64,000 nucleotides of DNA from an uncultured Ruminococcus sp. (lineage in GTDB: Bacteria > Bacillota > Clostridia > Oscillospirales > Ruminococcaceae). Shown here in pieces: positions 6,171-10,394 of the stretch. The stretch spans positions 1 to 64,000 of the forward strand of contig CAMKMD010000015.1 of NCBI GenBank assembly GCA_946413815.1, given 5' to 3'. The stretch's first letter is position 1; the number at the start of each line of letters is the position of its first letter. The notes beneath the pieces are model-generated. The model was given only the letters and a program-made list of their open reading frames with translations. It was not told the DNA's origin and ran no database searches. A program made the translations under genes and the position numbers.

Positions 6171-6722
6171 TTATTTTCTGCCGCAGTTCTTGTCGAACGA
6201 AGGATTGCAGGCATAGAAATTCCGTGAATCGAGATTATCCTGTGCTATGCGGAGAGCCTCACCGAAACGCTGATAGTGAACTATTTCCCGCTGGCGGAGG
6301 AAACGAATGGGATCACGTACATCGGGATCGTCAGCAAGACGCAGGATATTGTCATAGGTGGTGCGGGCTTTCTGTTCAGCAGCCATGTTCTCATGAAGAT
6401 CCGTTATTATATCCCCTTTTGACTGGAAATAAGTCGCAGTAAACGGTGTTCCGGAAGCAGCTACAGGATATATACCTGTAGTATGATCCACAAAATAATC
6501 ACTGAAGCCGCTTTCCTTTATCTCTTCCGGAGTGAGATCTTTTGTGAGCTGATACAGAATTGCAGAGATCATCTCAACATGGGCAAGCTCTTCCGTTCCG
6601 ATGTCAGTAAGGAGTCCCTTGACCTCTGCGTATGGCATAACATACCGCTGATTAAGATAACGCAGAGATGCAGCAAGCTCTCCATCCGGGCCGCCAAGCT
6701 GGCTGATAATGACCTTCGCCAT
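6171..6722 (-). CDS. cotJC: Spore coat protein CotJC (manganese-catalase family), downstream segment of an interrupted gene
   Basis: The listed frame (183 aa from ATG 6722) carries the di-manganese catalase-like ferritin fold: GGPDGELAASLRYLNQRY, GTEELAHVE, AAEQKARTTY and REIVHYQRFGEA supply the Glu/His metal ligands. CotJC is a spore-coat protein normally encoded after cotJA and cotJB. The CotJC reading frame continues upstream of this ATG to 6761, encoding the family's conserved LQYPV-NIKK-DPR stretch, so ATG 6722 is not the native start. That stretch has no start codon. The missing first codons (MWQYEKK) lie 3.1 kb away at 9887-9907, after cotJB. Joining the parts gives a 203-aa CotJC of normal length. 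In the unrearranged chromosome this segment probably yields no functional protein. Confidence 0.9.
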   Translation of the reverse strand: MAKVIISQLGGPDGELAASLRYLNQRYVMPYAEVKGLLTDIGTEELAHVEMISAILYQLTKDLTPEEIKESGFSDYFVDHTTGIYPVAASGTPFTATYFQSKGDIITDLHENMAAEQKARTTYDNILRLADDPDVRDPIRFLRQREIVHYQRFGEALRIAQDNLDSRNFYACNPSFDKNCGRK

Positions 6723-6747
6723 TCTCGGGTCAGTCTTTTTTATATTT

Positions 6748-6800
6748 ACCGGGTACTGTAATTTGTCTGTATACCAGATCCGGACATTAACAAGCTGTTT
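6748..6800 (-). other. Attachment site at the cotJC 3' side of the intervening element
   Basis: Read on the minus strand, the element arm GGTATACAG (6775-6767), two bases, the proposed crossover AA (6764-6763), then cotJC codons TTA CAG TAC from 6761. The arm is the mirror of CTGCATACC at the other junction (9885-9877). The core sits inside an AAA (Lys) codon. Confidence 0.75.
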
Positions 6801-7060
6801 TACCCCCTCTCTTTAATGATCTCAATTCGTTCGGCTGCGATCATATTTTCATGGCTGTGGTATATCTTCATAAGTGCAAAGGCAAGATCACCTGCAAGCC
6901 TTTGCTCGCTTTGCTTTGTATGCTTCGGAAGATGGCAGATGACCTTTGCACCTCTGTCGCGCAGCCTGAGTACTATTACTGTTTCCTCATCTTTATCTGT
7001 TTCGCTGATGATATCATATTCTGTCCGGTCCCACATACTTGCTGTCTTCTTTTCAGACAT
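6800..7060 (-). CDS. 86-aa hypothetical protein of the cotJC element
   Basis: Small charged soluble protein (begins MSEKKTASMWDRTEY, ends IEIIKERG) with a good AGGAGTG ribosome site. No family was recognised. It lies at the element end opposite the recombinase and points toward the left junction; its stop is about 35 bp from the core. Size and position would suit a recombination directionality factor, but nothing in the sequence proves this. It is divergent from tetR, and the TetR operator lies in the shared intergenic region. Confidence 0.6.
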   Translation of the reverse strand: MSEKKTASMWDRTEYDIISETDKDEETVIVLRLRDRGAKVICHLPKHTKQSEQRLAGDLAFALMKIYHSHENMIAAERIEIIKERG

Positions 7061-7095
7061 AAATACACTCCTTTTTTAGTATTTATCAGTAATAC

Positions 7096-7124
7096 TTGAC
7101 TTTTTCTTTTTAATGGTATATAAT
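7096..7124 (+). promoter_or_regulatory. Promoter of the TetR/hydrolase operon
   Basis: TTGACT (7096-7101), 17-bp spacer, TATAAT (7119-7124). The -10 box abuts the large palindrome at 7125-7160. Confidence 0.85.
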
Positions 7125-7160
7125 AGTATCAGTTATTAAACGTGTTTAATAACTGATACT
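7125..7160. promoter_or_regulatory. 36-bp palindromic operator, probable TetR site
   Basis: Two perfect 17-bp arms (AGTATCAGTTATTAAAC and its inverse) flank a GT centre. The palindrome starts at the base after the -10 box and covers the expected TSS, so binding would block transcription. Position beside a tetR gene is typical of autorepression. Confidence 0.85.
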
Positions 7161-7193
7161 ATGTGTAATTCTTATTCATGGAAGGATGATAAA

Positions 7194-7796
7194 ATGACAG
7201 AAAAGCCAAAAAGAGATCTTGAAGGAACAAGGAATTCCCTTCTGAATGCAGCAAGAGAACTTCTGACGAGCGGCATAGATGCAGAGAAAGTTACATCCCG
7301 CACTTTAGCCGGACGAGCGGGAGTAAATGCCGCCATGATAAACTATTGTTACGGATCCCGCGAAGCTTTGCTATATGAAGTGTATAAGAAACTGCTTGCC
7401 GAGGCGCAGGGTGCTGACAAGACTCTGGTGCAGAACATAAATAATCCCGGGATCACGCCTAAGGAAAAGCTGTTCATGATCCATTATTCTCTTATGAAAC
7501 TGATGATAGCAAATTTCACCTTATCCCGTACTGTAACTCAATACATACTGCTTAACCGTTCAGATGAAGCAGGTATGGAGAGCCTGCCCTTCATAATACA
7601 ACACTTCAGGGGGTCCAAAACGGAAATAGAGTGTGCACTTATTGCGTTTGAGCTTACAAGCCTGCATGAAATAGCCGTCCTGCAGCACTCCATGCTCAAA
7701 GACAGGCTCGGTACAGATCTTACAGACGATGCTGTGCTGAAAAAATACGTAAGAAATAATCTAGACCGTTTTCTCGGTCGGGAACAGGAGGTCTGA
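7194..7796 (+). CDS. TetR-family transcriptional regulator
   Basis: 200 aa from ATG 7194, chosen because GGAAGGATG precedes it; an upstream in-frame ATG at 7161 lacks a ribosome site. Residues about 10-58 form the TetR helix-turn-helix (RTLAGRAGVNAAMINYCYGSREALLYEV), followed by an all-helical ligand domain. It probably represses itself and the downstream hydrolase through the 36-bp palindrome. It is cargo of the cotJC element; the hydrolase ATG follows its stop after one base. Confidence 0.9.
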   Translation: MTEKPKRDLEGTRNSLLNAARELLTSGIDAEKVTSRTLAGRAGVNAAMINYCYGSREALLYEVYKKLLAEAQGADKTLVQNINNPGITPKEKLFMIHYSLMKLMIANFTLSRTVTQYILLNRSDEAGMESLPFIIQHFRGSKTEIECALIAFELTSLHEIAVLQHSMLKDRLGTDLTDDAVLKKYVRNNLDRFLGREQEV

Positions 7797-7797
7797 T

Positions 7798-8316
7798 ATG
7801 TCGGATAAAAAAGCGCTTATCGTAATTGATATGCAGAATGATTATCTCTGGGAGAAAAGGAAGGCAATGTTCTGCTATGATACAAAATCACTTGTTGATG
7901 CTGTTAATGAGGCCGTGGCTGAATACAGCAACAAAGGCTGGGACATCATTTACATTGAACAGGTATTTCCCGACTTGATCACAAATAAATGGATAATCGG
8001 GTTTTCGATAAAAAACACTGAAGGTGCAGAGCTGTATAACGGACTCAATGTCATATCAGAACATATATTTGAGAAAAATCTTCCGGACAGTTTTACATCA
8101 AAGGCTTTCAGGGAGTTTGTACGCAATAAAGGCTACAATGAAGTTGCGCTCTGCGGGCTTGATGAATGCGGATGTGTCGGCGCTACAGCTAAAGGTGCAG
8201 TAAAGGCAGGTATCAGCGTCTCTCTTATCGAAGACGCGACGGGCAGAAGATTTTCAAAAGAAAAGGTAGATAAGATGCGAAGAAAGCTGAATAAGCTTGG
8301 TGTTAATTATATATAG
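7798..8316 (+). CDS. Isochorismatase-family cysteine hydrolase
   Basis: 172 aa. The cysteine-hydrolase triad is visible: Asp in IVIDMQNDY, Lys in FEKNLPDSF, and the nucleophilic Cys in ECGCVGATAKGA. The family includes nicotinamidases and isochorismatases, which hydrolyse small amides or vinyl ethers; the substrate cannot be assigned. It is co-transcribed with tetR and therefore probably induced by a small molecule sensed by that repressor. Its presence on a spore-gene intervening element is unusual. Confidence 0.85.
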   Translation: MSDKKALIVIDMQNDYLWEKRKAMFCYDTKSLVDAVNEAVAEYSNKGWDIIYIEQVFPDLITNKWIIGFSIKNTEGAELYNGLNVISEHIFEKNLPDSFTSKAFREFVRNKGYNEVALCGLDECGCVGATAKGAVKAGISVSLIEDATGRRFSKEKVDKMRRKLNKLGVNYI

Positions 8317-8319
8317 GAT

Positions 8320-8360
8320 AATCCCCGTAGACGGTCGTCATTGCCGTTTACGGGGATTTT
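8320..8360 (+). terminator. Terminator between hydrolase and recombinase
   Basis: AATCCCCGTAGACGG and CCGTTTACGGGGATT form a 15-bp stem (one G-T pair) followed by TTTT. It uncouples recombinase transcription from the TetR operon. Confidence 0.85.
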
Positions 8361-8390
8361 GGTATATCGACAGCATTTATCGCATACTGT
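8361..8390 (+). promoter_or_regulatory. Possible sporulation-type promoter of the recombinase
   Basis: GGTATATC (8361-8368), 14 bp, CATACTGT (8383-8390). The spacing and the CATAC core resemble the sigma-E consensus; no sigma-A promoter is seen in this gap. The match is partial, so the call is tentative. Confidence 0.35.
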
Positions 8391-8419
8391 ATTGCAGAGA
8401 TCGTATTACGGAGGTTTGT

Positions 8420-9862
8420 ATGGATGAATACTGTATGTATCTGAGAAAGTCGAGAGCTGATATGGAGGCAGAGAGACGAGGCGAGGGAGAAACTCTCAGC
8501 AGACACAGAGATATGCTGACAGAGCTTGCTGCCAGACTCGGGCTTAATGTTGTTACTGTTTATAAAGAAATAGTCAGCGGTGAAAGCATTTCCGCAAGGC
8601 CCCAGATGCAGAAGATGCTTGAAGAAGTGGGAAAAGGCAGTTATTCGGGGGTCATTGTTGCTGAGATTGAGAGGCTCGCAAGAGGAGATACGATAGATCA
8701 GGGTGTAGTTGCACGTACATTCAGGCAATCCTCTACAAAGATAATCACGCCCGCTAAAATATACGATCCGTGTGATGAGTTTGACGAGGAGTTTTTTGAG
8801 TTCTCCCTGTTTATGAGCCGCCGTGAATACAAGACCATACGCAGGCGTATGCAGGCGGGAAGGCTTGCTGCAGTCAAGGAAGGAAACTATATCGCATCCG
8901 CTGCGCCTTATGGCTACAGGAAAATAACGACTGCACAGGGTATACATACACTTGAAATAATTCCGGAAGAAGCGGAGGTCGTCAGGCTGATATTTGAAAT
9001 GAGAAAGAAAGGTCATGGTGCAGTGTTCATTGCCCATGAGCTTGACAGAACAGGTATACGCCCGCAGAAAAGCAGTAAATGGGAACCTTCTAGTATACGG
9101 CGGATACTTGATAATCCTGTATACTGTGGAAAGCTGAGATGGAAAAGCAGCAGTGAGAACTCCGAACTGTATAATGGCTTCCATAGGGAGATAATCAGCA
9201 AAGATGACTATTCTATGATACATGATAAAAAAGGACCGTCAGTCCTGTCTGACAGAGAAATGCTGAACTATTATCACGGTCTGGTCTACTGCGGATGCTG
9301 CGGCGGACAAATGAGGAGGAGATATGTATGTTCAAGCGGCAGGGAGTATATGCTTTGTGACTCTTATGAATGCAGAGGCAAAGTCGTCGGCTCCACCTTT
9401 GAAGCAGTGGACGAGTCTGTTTTAGCCTGTATCAGGCTTCTGACAAGTCGTATCAGTGAACCGCTTGTCTGCCGGAACTCAGAGTATAGCTGTGATGAAA
9501 GAAAGAATATAGCCGTCAGATCCGAGCTTCGTTCAGCTGAACGAAAGCTTTCACGGATGTATGACCTGCTTGAAGATGGGGTATATGACAGGGATATCTT
9601 CAACGAACGTTCGGAAGAACTGTTACAGAGGATCGAATCTCTAAGGAAGGCTTCAGCTGAGGAGAAACGTGATGTTTCCTTGTTTCAAGATATATTGTCA
9701 GCTGATTTACATGAGGTCGTTGAGTCTTTTCCGGACGCAAAGCCCGCCGAAAAGAACGCTCTTCTCAATGCGGCAGTGTACCGGATAGAATACAGGAAGA
9801 CTGCGCGTACATACCGTAACAGGGGCAACGACCCTTTAACGCTGGAAGTCTTCTTCCGATAA
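8420..9862 (+). CDS. Large serine recombinase of the cotJC element
   Basis: 480 aa from ATG 8420, which has GGAGG 5 bp upstream; longer in-frame starts lack a ribosome site. The N-terminal resolvase domain (about 3-150) has YLRKSR with catalytic Ser11 and EIERLARG with active-site arginines. A recombinase domain (about 165-275) contains PYGYRK and the DNPVY motif. A zinc ribbon (CGCC at 291-294, Cys304, Cys313, Cys318) and a C-terminal coiled coil (about 370-410) complete the large serine integrase plan. Such enzymes cut at a 2-bp core within short att sites; its stop lies about 25 bp from the proposed core. It is expected to excise the element and restore cotJC. Confidence 0.93.
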   Translation: MDEYCMYLRKSRADMEAERRGEGETLSRHRDMLTELAARLGLNVVTVYKEIVSGESISARPQMQKMLEEVGKGSYSGVIVAEIERLARGDTIDQGVVARTFRQSSTKIITPAKIYDPCDEFDEEFFEFSLFMSRREYKTIRRRMQAGRLAAVKEGNYIASAAPYGYRKITTAQGIHTLEIIPEEAEVVRLIFEMRKKGHGAVFIAHELDRTGIRPQKSSKWEPSSIRRILDNPVYCGKLRWKSSSENSELYNGFHREIISKDDYSMIHDKKGPSVLSDREMLNYYHGLVYCGCCGGQMRRRYVCSSGREYMLCDSYECRGKVVGSTFEAVDESVLACIRLLTSRISEPLVCRNSEYSCDERKNIAVRSELRSAERKLSRMYDLLEDGVYDRDIFNERSEELLQRIESLRKASAEEKRDVSLFQDILSADLHEVVESFPDAKPAEKNALLNAAVYRIEYRKTARTYRNRGNDPLTLEVFFR

Positions 9863-9907
9863 TCATGCAGCACTCCGGTATGCAGTTTTTTTCTCATACT
9901 GCCACAT
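9863..9907 (-). CDS. cotJC: cotJC 5' segment (first seven codons) reading into the element
   Basis: ATG 9907 lies 2 bp after the cotJB stop, with AGGAG six bases upstream. It encodes MWQYEKK, the conserved CotJC N-terminus (family pattern MW-x-YEKKLQYPV), then seven element-encoded residues and a stop at 9863-9865. As it stands the ORF makes only a 14-aa peptide. Joined at the AAA codon to position 6761 it restores cotJC. Confidence 0.85.
   Translation of the reverse strand: MWQYEKKTAYRSAA
9870..9905 (-). other. Attachment site at the cotJB-proximal end of the element
   Basis: Read on the minus strand, cotJC codons through GAG, a run of seven A (9892-9886) containing the core AA (9889-9888), then element arm CTGCATACC (9885-9877). 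This arm is the mirror image of GGTATACAG at 6775-6767. Confidence 0.75.
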
Positions 9908-9909
9908 AG

Positions 9910-10158
9910 TCAGCTCCTTTCCCAGGGCCATGGGTCATTGACCCAGTCCCAGCTCTGTTCTGCAGTGCTCTGCTCCGGTACTATCGGACCAAAACGCCTT
10001 ATATACTCATCCACTGCTGTCTCACGCATATCCTTATATCTTCTGAACAGCGCAAGTCCGCGGCGGCACGAAGGATGGGTGTCGAGATAAAGATTAAGCT
10101 CTTTCAGGGCAAAATCATATTGCCTGATACGTTTCATAAGCGCATTCTTTTCATTCAT
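9910..10158 (-). CDS. cotJB: Spore coat protein CotJB
   Basis: 82 aa from ATG 10158, chosen because it overlaps the cotJA stop as ATGA and is preceded by GGGGGTGG. The CotJB pattern is clear: LNLYLDTHPSC, a central helical RRYKDMRETAVDEYIRRFGP, and the ending DWVNDPWPWE. CotJB is a small inner spore-coat component made in the mother cell with CotJA and CotJC. Its 3' end encodes the ribosome site for the split cotJC. Confidence 0.9.
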   Translation of the reverse strand: MNEKNALMKRIRQYDFALKELNLYLDTHPSCRRGLALFRRYKDMRETAVDEYIRRFGPIVPEQSTAEQSWDWVNDPWPWERS

Positions 10159-10394
10159 CTGCTGCCACCCCCTTTGAAGGGCCTGACAAGTTCCGGGAAT
10201 AAGGTGCCGCTGCACATTGCCTCTTCTTCGTTGTATACCTCACGCCACTGCTGATAGGGGACATAAGCCATGGCGAGTGGTGTATCTGCGGGAAACGTGC
10301 TCATGTCGCCACCCGGCAGTTCATCGGCTGTCCGGTCATTGCTGCGGAACGGAAATACCTGCGCTGCTGTATCGTCAAACAGATTCACATTCAT
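10155..10394 (-). CDS. cotJA: Spore coat associated protein CotJA
   Basis: 79 aa from ATG 10394, with GGAGG eight bases upstream; longer in-frame starts were rejected. The family hallmark PLAMAYVPYQQW and the GTLFPELVRPF segment are present. First gene of cotJABC. It indicates that this lineage keeps at least part of the sporulation programme. No sigma-A promoter is seen upstream. Confidence 0.88.
   Translation of the reverse strand: MNVNLFDDTAAQVFPFRSNDRTADELPGGDMSTFPADTPLAMAYVPYQQWREVYNEEEAMCSGTLFPELVRPFKGGGSR

Follow-up and report, generated by a model that had tools for sequence, protein, structure and literature searches.

The window analysed here, a stretch of 64,000 nucleotides from an uncultured Ruminococcus sp. 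(contig CAMKMD010000015.1 of assembly GCA_946413815.1), carries a cotJABC spore-coat operon whose third gene, cotJC, is split by a 3,125-bp segment encoding a large serine recombinase (Table 1). The ATG at 9907 on the minus strand opens a frame that reads MWQYEKK and then TAYRSAA-stop, where it enters element DNA and ends; the second portion of the gene, on the same strand, opens with LQYPV at 6761 and closes with a stop codon at 6171-6173. Both ends of the segment share As (seven at 9886-9892, three at 6762-6764), and its length is 3,125 bp wherever among them the cut is placed. Its removal joins 7 and 196 codons into an in-frame cotJC of 203 codons. An earlier note made from the letters of this DNA had described the split, the shared A core and the restored gene, and all of these were recovered: cotJA, cotJB, the ATG and LQYPV lie where it had placed them, and profile searches confirm the gene families. 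The joined product, a Mn_catalase-domain protein encoded by the third gene of cotJABC, aligns with the whole CotJC of a congener (G367), residues 1-7 being identical. Congeners with an uninterrupted cotJC read straight from MWQYEKK into LQYPV exactly at the split point of the window (L041, L046, L048, L054 and others), with a few residues differing in L060 and L066. The split is not a chance feature, because the same codon is split in other genomes of the genus, with related recombinases. The implied circle would have at its joint a near-palindrome centred on AA, the form expected for a serine recombinase.

Table 1. Features of the split cotJC locus, in window positions (aa, amino acids; ORF, open reading frame; att, attachment site).
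Feature	Position	Strand	Evidence and remarks
cotJA	10155..10394	-	ORF; PF11007 1.4e-18
cotJB	9910..10158	-	ORF; PF12652 1.3e-29
cotJC 5' fragment, codons 1-7 (MWQYEKK)	9887..9907	-	translation; same residues open whole CotJC of congeners
attL-side A-run, likely crossover point (shared AA core)	9886..9892	.	sequence; crossover predicted
Large serine recombinase (480 aa), its stop 24 bp away from cotJC 5' fragment	8420..9862	+	PF00239 3.6e-16, PF07508 2.7e-19; frame intact
Isochorismatase-family hydrolase (apparent cargo)	7798..8316	+	PF00857 3.3e-25
TetR-type regulator (apparent cargo)	7194..7796	+	PF00440 22.4 bits, slightly below cut-off 24
40-bp palindrome (38/40 positions), overlaps promoter, likely TetR operator	7123..7162	.	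function predicted
Sigma-A-like promoter TTGACT-17-TATAAT upstream of tetR	7096..7124	+	1 in element vs 1.05 expected by chance
86-aa ORF, candidate recombination directionality factor	6800..7060	-	homologues tied to site-A elements
attR-side AAA (shared core)	6762..6764	.	sequence
cotJC 3' part, codons 8-203 + stop	6171..6761	-	PF05067 (Mn_catalase) 4.4e-54; matches whole G367 CotJC at 90% identity

The recombinase, which the earlier note had called intact, is indeed of full length and free of internal stops, with Resolvase and Recombinase domains and a zinc ribbon just below the cut-off (23.1 against 25.3 bits). Its best NCBIfam match is XisF (86 bits, cut-off 375), and in PHROGs it matches the integrase family phrog_95 (2.9e-87). 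It is the only one of the four element proteins to match named PHROGs families (integrase, DNA invertase); the isochorismatase gave a weak match to a family of unknown function, TetR and the 86-aa protein gave none, and this search revealed no phage structural gene among the four. Homologues of TetR and isochorismatase were absent from the other loci searched, and both look like cargo specific to this copy. The palindrome and promoter at 7096-7162 lie between tetR and the 86-aa gene, and a TetR operator there could also affect the latter.

Splits of cotJC across the genus

In a survey of 100 genomes of the genus, including that of the window, cotJC was found in 83 and mapped in 82, the copy in G359 being a 35% paralogue that was excluded. 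Also dropped before counting were tblastn pieces below 60% identity (for example in G305, G346 and G383) and a second copy in G310. The gene is whole in 18 of the mapped genomes and split in 63, the window included; one (G370) could be placed in neither class. The split genomes hold 90 insertions, one to four each, with at least two in 23 genomes and four in G330. All fall at five places, at conserved codons of cotJC: A at codon 7 (the site in the window), B at about codon 30, C at about 62-65, D at about 176 and E at about 135. Place C comprises two junction points 2-3 codons apart, each with a different recombinase clade. Many insertions are viewed from one side only, and two C calls (G332, G373) rest on a contig edge. 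Neighbouring pieces on the same contig are in the correct order in 24 of 24 cases, none on opposite strands (the G310 second copy is excluded from both counts), and the gaps between them run from 1.5 to 160 kb, six site-A gaps having been measured from cotJB and entered by hand. By far the largest is a D-site gap of 160 kb on one contig (G328:C1 938216-1098921).

In 68 of the 90 insertions (two set by hand) the junction has a recombinase ORF no more than 400 bp away, and in 64 of these 68 the 3' end of its gene is the end nearer the junction. Among the 22 insertions lacking one at that distance, 18 have one end visible, and in G019 both ends are visible with only about 135 bp beyond each. No recombinase was present at the 18 whole loci within the stretches fetched (2.1-19.3 kb each). 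Decayed recombinases at the same split, which the earlier note had considered contrary to its reading, were not seen in relatives: 47 of 56 junction recombinase ORFs are at least 380 aa long, and the nine shorter ones, not each inspected, include several that run to the end of the fetched stretch. A tree of 59 recombinases, eight of whose site labels were set by hand, sorts by insertion site. The G381 recombinase was labelled B by the nearest-junction rule, yet groups with C, which fits the C junction of that genome. The window recombinase forms the deepest branch of the site-A clade, with 51-55% identity to other site-A recombinases and at most 35.5% to the rest. Beside other recombinases of the host genome, no sporulation gene was noticed in nine stretches judged by eye without a profile search.

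The 86-aa ORF, which belongs to no known family by profile searches, follows the site-A elements. Among the fetched loci, homologues with E < 1e-5 occur only in such elements (G260, G391, G319, G356, G361, G330, G360, L071), the weak matches (E 0.009 and above) including some C elements. The ORF is present in all six site-A elements with both ends visible; for the remaining 24 site-A genomes the view of the element is mostly incomplete. At E 1e-5 its profile found six of 297 family genomes (G000, G260, G126, G238, G002, G028), four of them new, as the window and G260 are members of the profile. The same six genomes give the six best recombinase matches in the family, and the 86-aa gene lies divergent from the recombinase gene, within about 5 kb. 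A protein search returned one relative, 91% identical, on a 1.8-kb contig, and the predicted model has a mean pLDDT (a per-residue confidence measure) of 56, too low for fold comparison. This distribution makes the 86-aa protein a candidate recombination directionality factor.

Other genera and other target genes

The family search gave a cotJC match in 198 of 297 genomes and, among the matches listed, many end at the same sites. We fetched 20 regions from 18 genomes of other genera in which the cotJC match is cut off; a recombinase is present in the fetched stretch in 14 of the 18, and both parts of cotJC were seen in four (G117, G228, G140, G229). In G117, a single contig of 2.57 Mb, codons 1-178 and codons 172-203 are separated by 17.7 kb that include a recombinase. 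A search across the order gave a cotJC match in 320 of 394 genomes, and at least four of the best matches listed for other families end close to these sites (G672, G629, G670, G569).

Thirty-five homologues of the recombinase were then fetched regardless of position (29 of 47 places outside its own genome, and six from another search). As many as 25 lie at a cotJ locus, named records among them being R. flavefaciens NALB_7813_7, Ruminococcus sp. RGIG8687, Ruminococcus sp. SC0309_S10_5 and Clostridia bacterium MAG226. The rest sit in a glycoside hydrolase family 18 (GH18) gene in five cases, in sigK in three and in an asparagine synthase gene in one (L022), with one unassigned. The GH18 targets were assigned with a match above the Pfam cut-off (L030), slightly below it (L025) or by similarity (L033, L035, L036), and the sigK targets by profile (L015, L073) or by an 11-residue sigK match only (L017). 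L074 was rejected as a sigK target, since only its element end resembles L073 and the sigK match is absent. We take the interrupted GH18 gene to be a SleL/YaaH-like mother-cell gene, and the asparagine synthase gene is presumably an AsnO-like mother-cell gene, possibly the sporulation AsnO.

A GH18 gene is interrupted near the conserved TYEWGY motif beside recombinase relatives (L249-L253), and its two parts lie about 4 kb apart in G291 (L250, G291:C2 74447-79018) and G094 (L251, G094:C26 23249-27851). An asparagine synthase fragment adjoins a recombinase relative in L254 (G089:C178 3586-3819). Halves of a sigK-like gene, on the same contig and strand, stand 5-9 kb apart in a skin-like arrangement in G260 (G260:C13 257478 and 266272), G310 (G310:C60 28898 and 23063) and G328 (G328:C1 422944 and 417043), and on two contigs in G324; the sigK model matches in the genus fall below the curated cut-off, as does the B. 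subtilis control.

Probable excision in the mother cell and its alternatives

The element in the window has the anatomy of the known sporulation gene-intervening elements, namely gene parts that can be joined in frame and an intact recombinase near one end. We consider it probable that the 3,125-bp segment is a skin-like serine-recombinase element inserted at codon 7 of cotJC, and that the mother cell excises it during sporulation, restoring the 203-codon gene. Recombination would join the two A-runs, attL and attR giving attB while the circle keeps attP. The element's own recombinase would act together with the 86-aa protein, which would set the direction, and a mother-cell sigma factor would turn excision on. 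The loss of DNA would be harmless, as the mother-cell chromosome is not inherited; because of this, such elements could settle in a gene used by the mother cell alone. The skin-like reading of the earlier note is thus borne out in its anatomy (split, recombinase, recurrence), and its developmental timing stays a prediction.

No stop occurs inside the trimmed cotJC pieces, the stops listed for raw matches in several genomes falling outside them. With pairs restricted to a synonymous divergence (dS) of 0.1-1.5, and the split set to the 55 genomes with 100 or more codons, the median ratio of nonsynonymous to synonymous divergence (dN/dS) of cotJC is 0.035 between split copies (71 of 1,485 pairs), 0.037 between whole copies (6 of 153) and 0.031 in mixed pairs (42 of 990). 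Recombinases of the same clade, listed for recombinase dS up to 1.6, have dN/dS of 0.08-0.27 (16 pairs), a range that excludes two cross-clade pairs near 1. In one pair, G371/G383, recombinase dS (0.67) exceeds that of cotJC (0.49), with a cotJC dN/dS of 0.046, which fits a shared old insertion.

Several observations weigh against excision in the mother cell. Most cotJC dS values are saturated, and in 15 of the 16 same-clade pairs the recombinases have diverged less at synonymous sites than cotJC (for example dS 0.35 against 1.30); many insertions are therefore probably recent transfers, and the low cotJC dN/dS partly reflects time spent whole. At G325 (D), G377 (C) and G378 (C), both ends are well visible and no recombinase lies within 400 bp. 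The second cotJC in G310 (L166, G310:C24 40390-40616), in a genome with a whole cotJC on another contig, has a junction like those at site A and lacks an internal stretch from about codon 52 to 176, a sign of decay or contamination. Upstream of 43 recombinase genes, whose start codons were chosen by rule and are in some cases off by a few codons, sigma-E and sigma-K motifs are not enriched over shuffles (mean best scores 10.79 against 10.61 and 5.95 against 5.89). For the -10 motif CATA the evidence points both ways. In favour of mother-cell control, 9 of 14 members of the 86-aa family carry it 14-36 bases before the start (once at -20, otherwise at -26 to -30), compared with 18 among 135 other ORFs and 4 among 43 recombinase genes. 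On the other side, these 86-aa genes are related, so that the counts are not independent, the pattern had been spotted in ten of the 14 before the test, only one of the four added later has it, and the genes of the window and G260 lack it. R. albus 7 is listed as a non-sporogenous strain in Galperin et al. 2012 (PMC3533761). Finally, excision in the window and its timing are predictions from the anatomy.

Two promoter candidates were set aside. The best mother-cell promoter match before the window recombinase, GTATATC-14-CATACTGT, scores 11/15, no better than the shuffled mean, and the sigma-K-like sites in the whole element (12 against 4.7 expected) lie mostly within genes and were given no weight.

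As to the host, SpoIVA was found in 96 of 100 genomes of the genus, Spo0A in 59 of 60, SpoIIR in 35 of 40 and the small acid-soluble spore protein SASP in 34 of 40; the genome of the window carries all four. With this near-universal gene set, the genus may form spores. In G339 (G339:C159 150421-151121), the SpoIVA ATPase region is matched as two overlapping stretches, possibly a frameshift.

The alternative that survives best, although we regard it as unlikely, is plain selfish insertion, in which cotJC is a conserved and dispensable landing site, carriers lose CotJC, and elements come and go. The recent arrival of many elements would suit it, as would the position of insertions at conserved codons if the recombinases track conserved DNA, and the catalase activity of CotJC has been described as unimportant for coat assembly (PMC3533761). 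A dead gene should drift, however; yet the split copies in 63 of 82 genomes lack internal stops and are under constraint as strong as that on whole copies, and even stacked insertions leave the visible pieces open, as at the four sites of G330. Moreover, the same recombinase family is found in sigK, the loss of which blocks sporulation in model species.

Somewhat less likely still is a reversible vegetative switch of the active-lysogeny type, in which excision and re-integration would toggle cotJC, a relative of manganese catalases, under stress. The element encodes a TetR regulator whose likely operator falls between the divergently oriented genes for TetR and the 86-aa protein, so that excision could respond to a ligand, and cultures of C. 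botulinum contained the excised form of the yin element at every time point (PMC10747680). However, a switch built on TetR and isochorismatase leaves the general pattern unexplained, as neither has a homologue in the other loci searched; the other targets include sigK, a sporulation gene; and CATA, as in mother-cell promoters, occurs in 23 of 44 cotJA upstream regions, a count without a control. An assembly or binning artefact is very improbable: most searched genomes are in many contigs, with many cotJC pieces on different ones, but all 24 same-contig pairs are collinear, the elements of the window and of G117 are continuous, and identical split codons turn up in different genomes alongside related recombinases.

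Beyond the window, we lean, with less assurance than for the single element, towards a wider version of excision in the mother cell, in which most species of the genus would inherit cotJC solely as pieces. Every recombinase clade would specialise in a single one of the five or more places in cotJC, and the elements, stacked up to four deep, would be excised in the mother cell, so that the coat catalase would be made only after several excisions. Spore-formers would then have an equivalent of the heterocyst interruption elements, and mobile DNA could occupy genes of the mother cell at no cost.

Relation to known intervening elements

The closest comparison is with skin in the sigK gene of Clostridioides difficile and Bacillus subtilis, likewise a serine recombinase element in a sporulation gene, with parts in frame and a small partner protein in the element (PMC5025042), and sigK is itself among the genes occupied by relatives of the window recombinase. 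Sigma-E in C. difficile controls the gene for the directionality factor CD1234 but not that for the recombinase, and the start site of the former lies 14 bp ahead of its start codon (PMC5025042). In contrast to skin, the target in the window is a coat gene rather than a sigma factor, the element spans 3.1 kb without phage structural genes, and cotJC has several sites and takes up to four elements per gene. The gin element in gerE of Bacillus cereus ATCC10987 is also a non-phage serine-recombinase element in a sporulation gene, with GirC named as integrase and GirX as directionality factor, but it measures 28.6 kb and has three recombinases, whereas the window element has one (PMC5595907). SP-beta in spsM (PMC4191935) and yin in yabG (PMC10747680) are excised precisely from a spore gene, as is predicted here, and yin encodes a recombinase of the serine type together with a predicted directionality factor that adjoins a putative sigma-K promoter (PMC10747680). 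Unlike the window element, both are phage or prophage-like, with one site per gene as described in those sources.

In the number of sites, cotJC is more like the genes that carry cyanobacterial heterocyst interruption elements, which have several site variants per gene and stack up to four in one nifD; most of their recombinases cluster by variant, and about half are serine recombinases (PMC4874684). They belong to another phylum and another cell type, the present elements occupying a spore-coat gene and being predicted to act in the mother cell. No report of an interrupted cotJC was found among the papers listed by searches of open-licence PubMed Central, as judged by titles, the starts of abstracts and, for a minority of them, passages. 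On the best reading, a skin-like developmental element has taken up a new target, cotJC, and this gene is now a hub with several insertion sites; the target gene, the stacked use of several sites in one gene, the breadth of occurrence and the linked partner ORF are new. The literature examples considered here each describe a single element at a single place in a spore gene; in the present genus 63 of 82 genomes are affected, and other genera also, near the same places.

If excision is real, the tolerance of mobile DNA in developmental genes becomes testable by comparison, and gut-type spore-formers are predicted to rebuild a coat gene by DNA excision. It would also serve as a warning that annotation will often show cotJC as absent or broken, and the recombinases, in at least six clades with predicted attachment sites, would be possible genome tools. 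As a separate observation, the attR of the prophage phi027 in C. difficile R20291 adjoins a CotJC-like catalase ORF (PMC11222575), perhaps another cotJC-related site.

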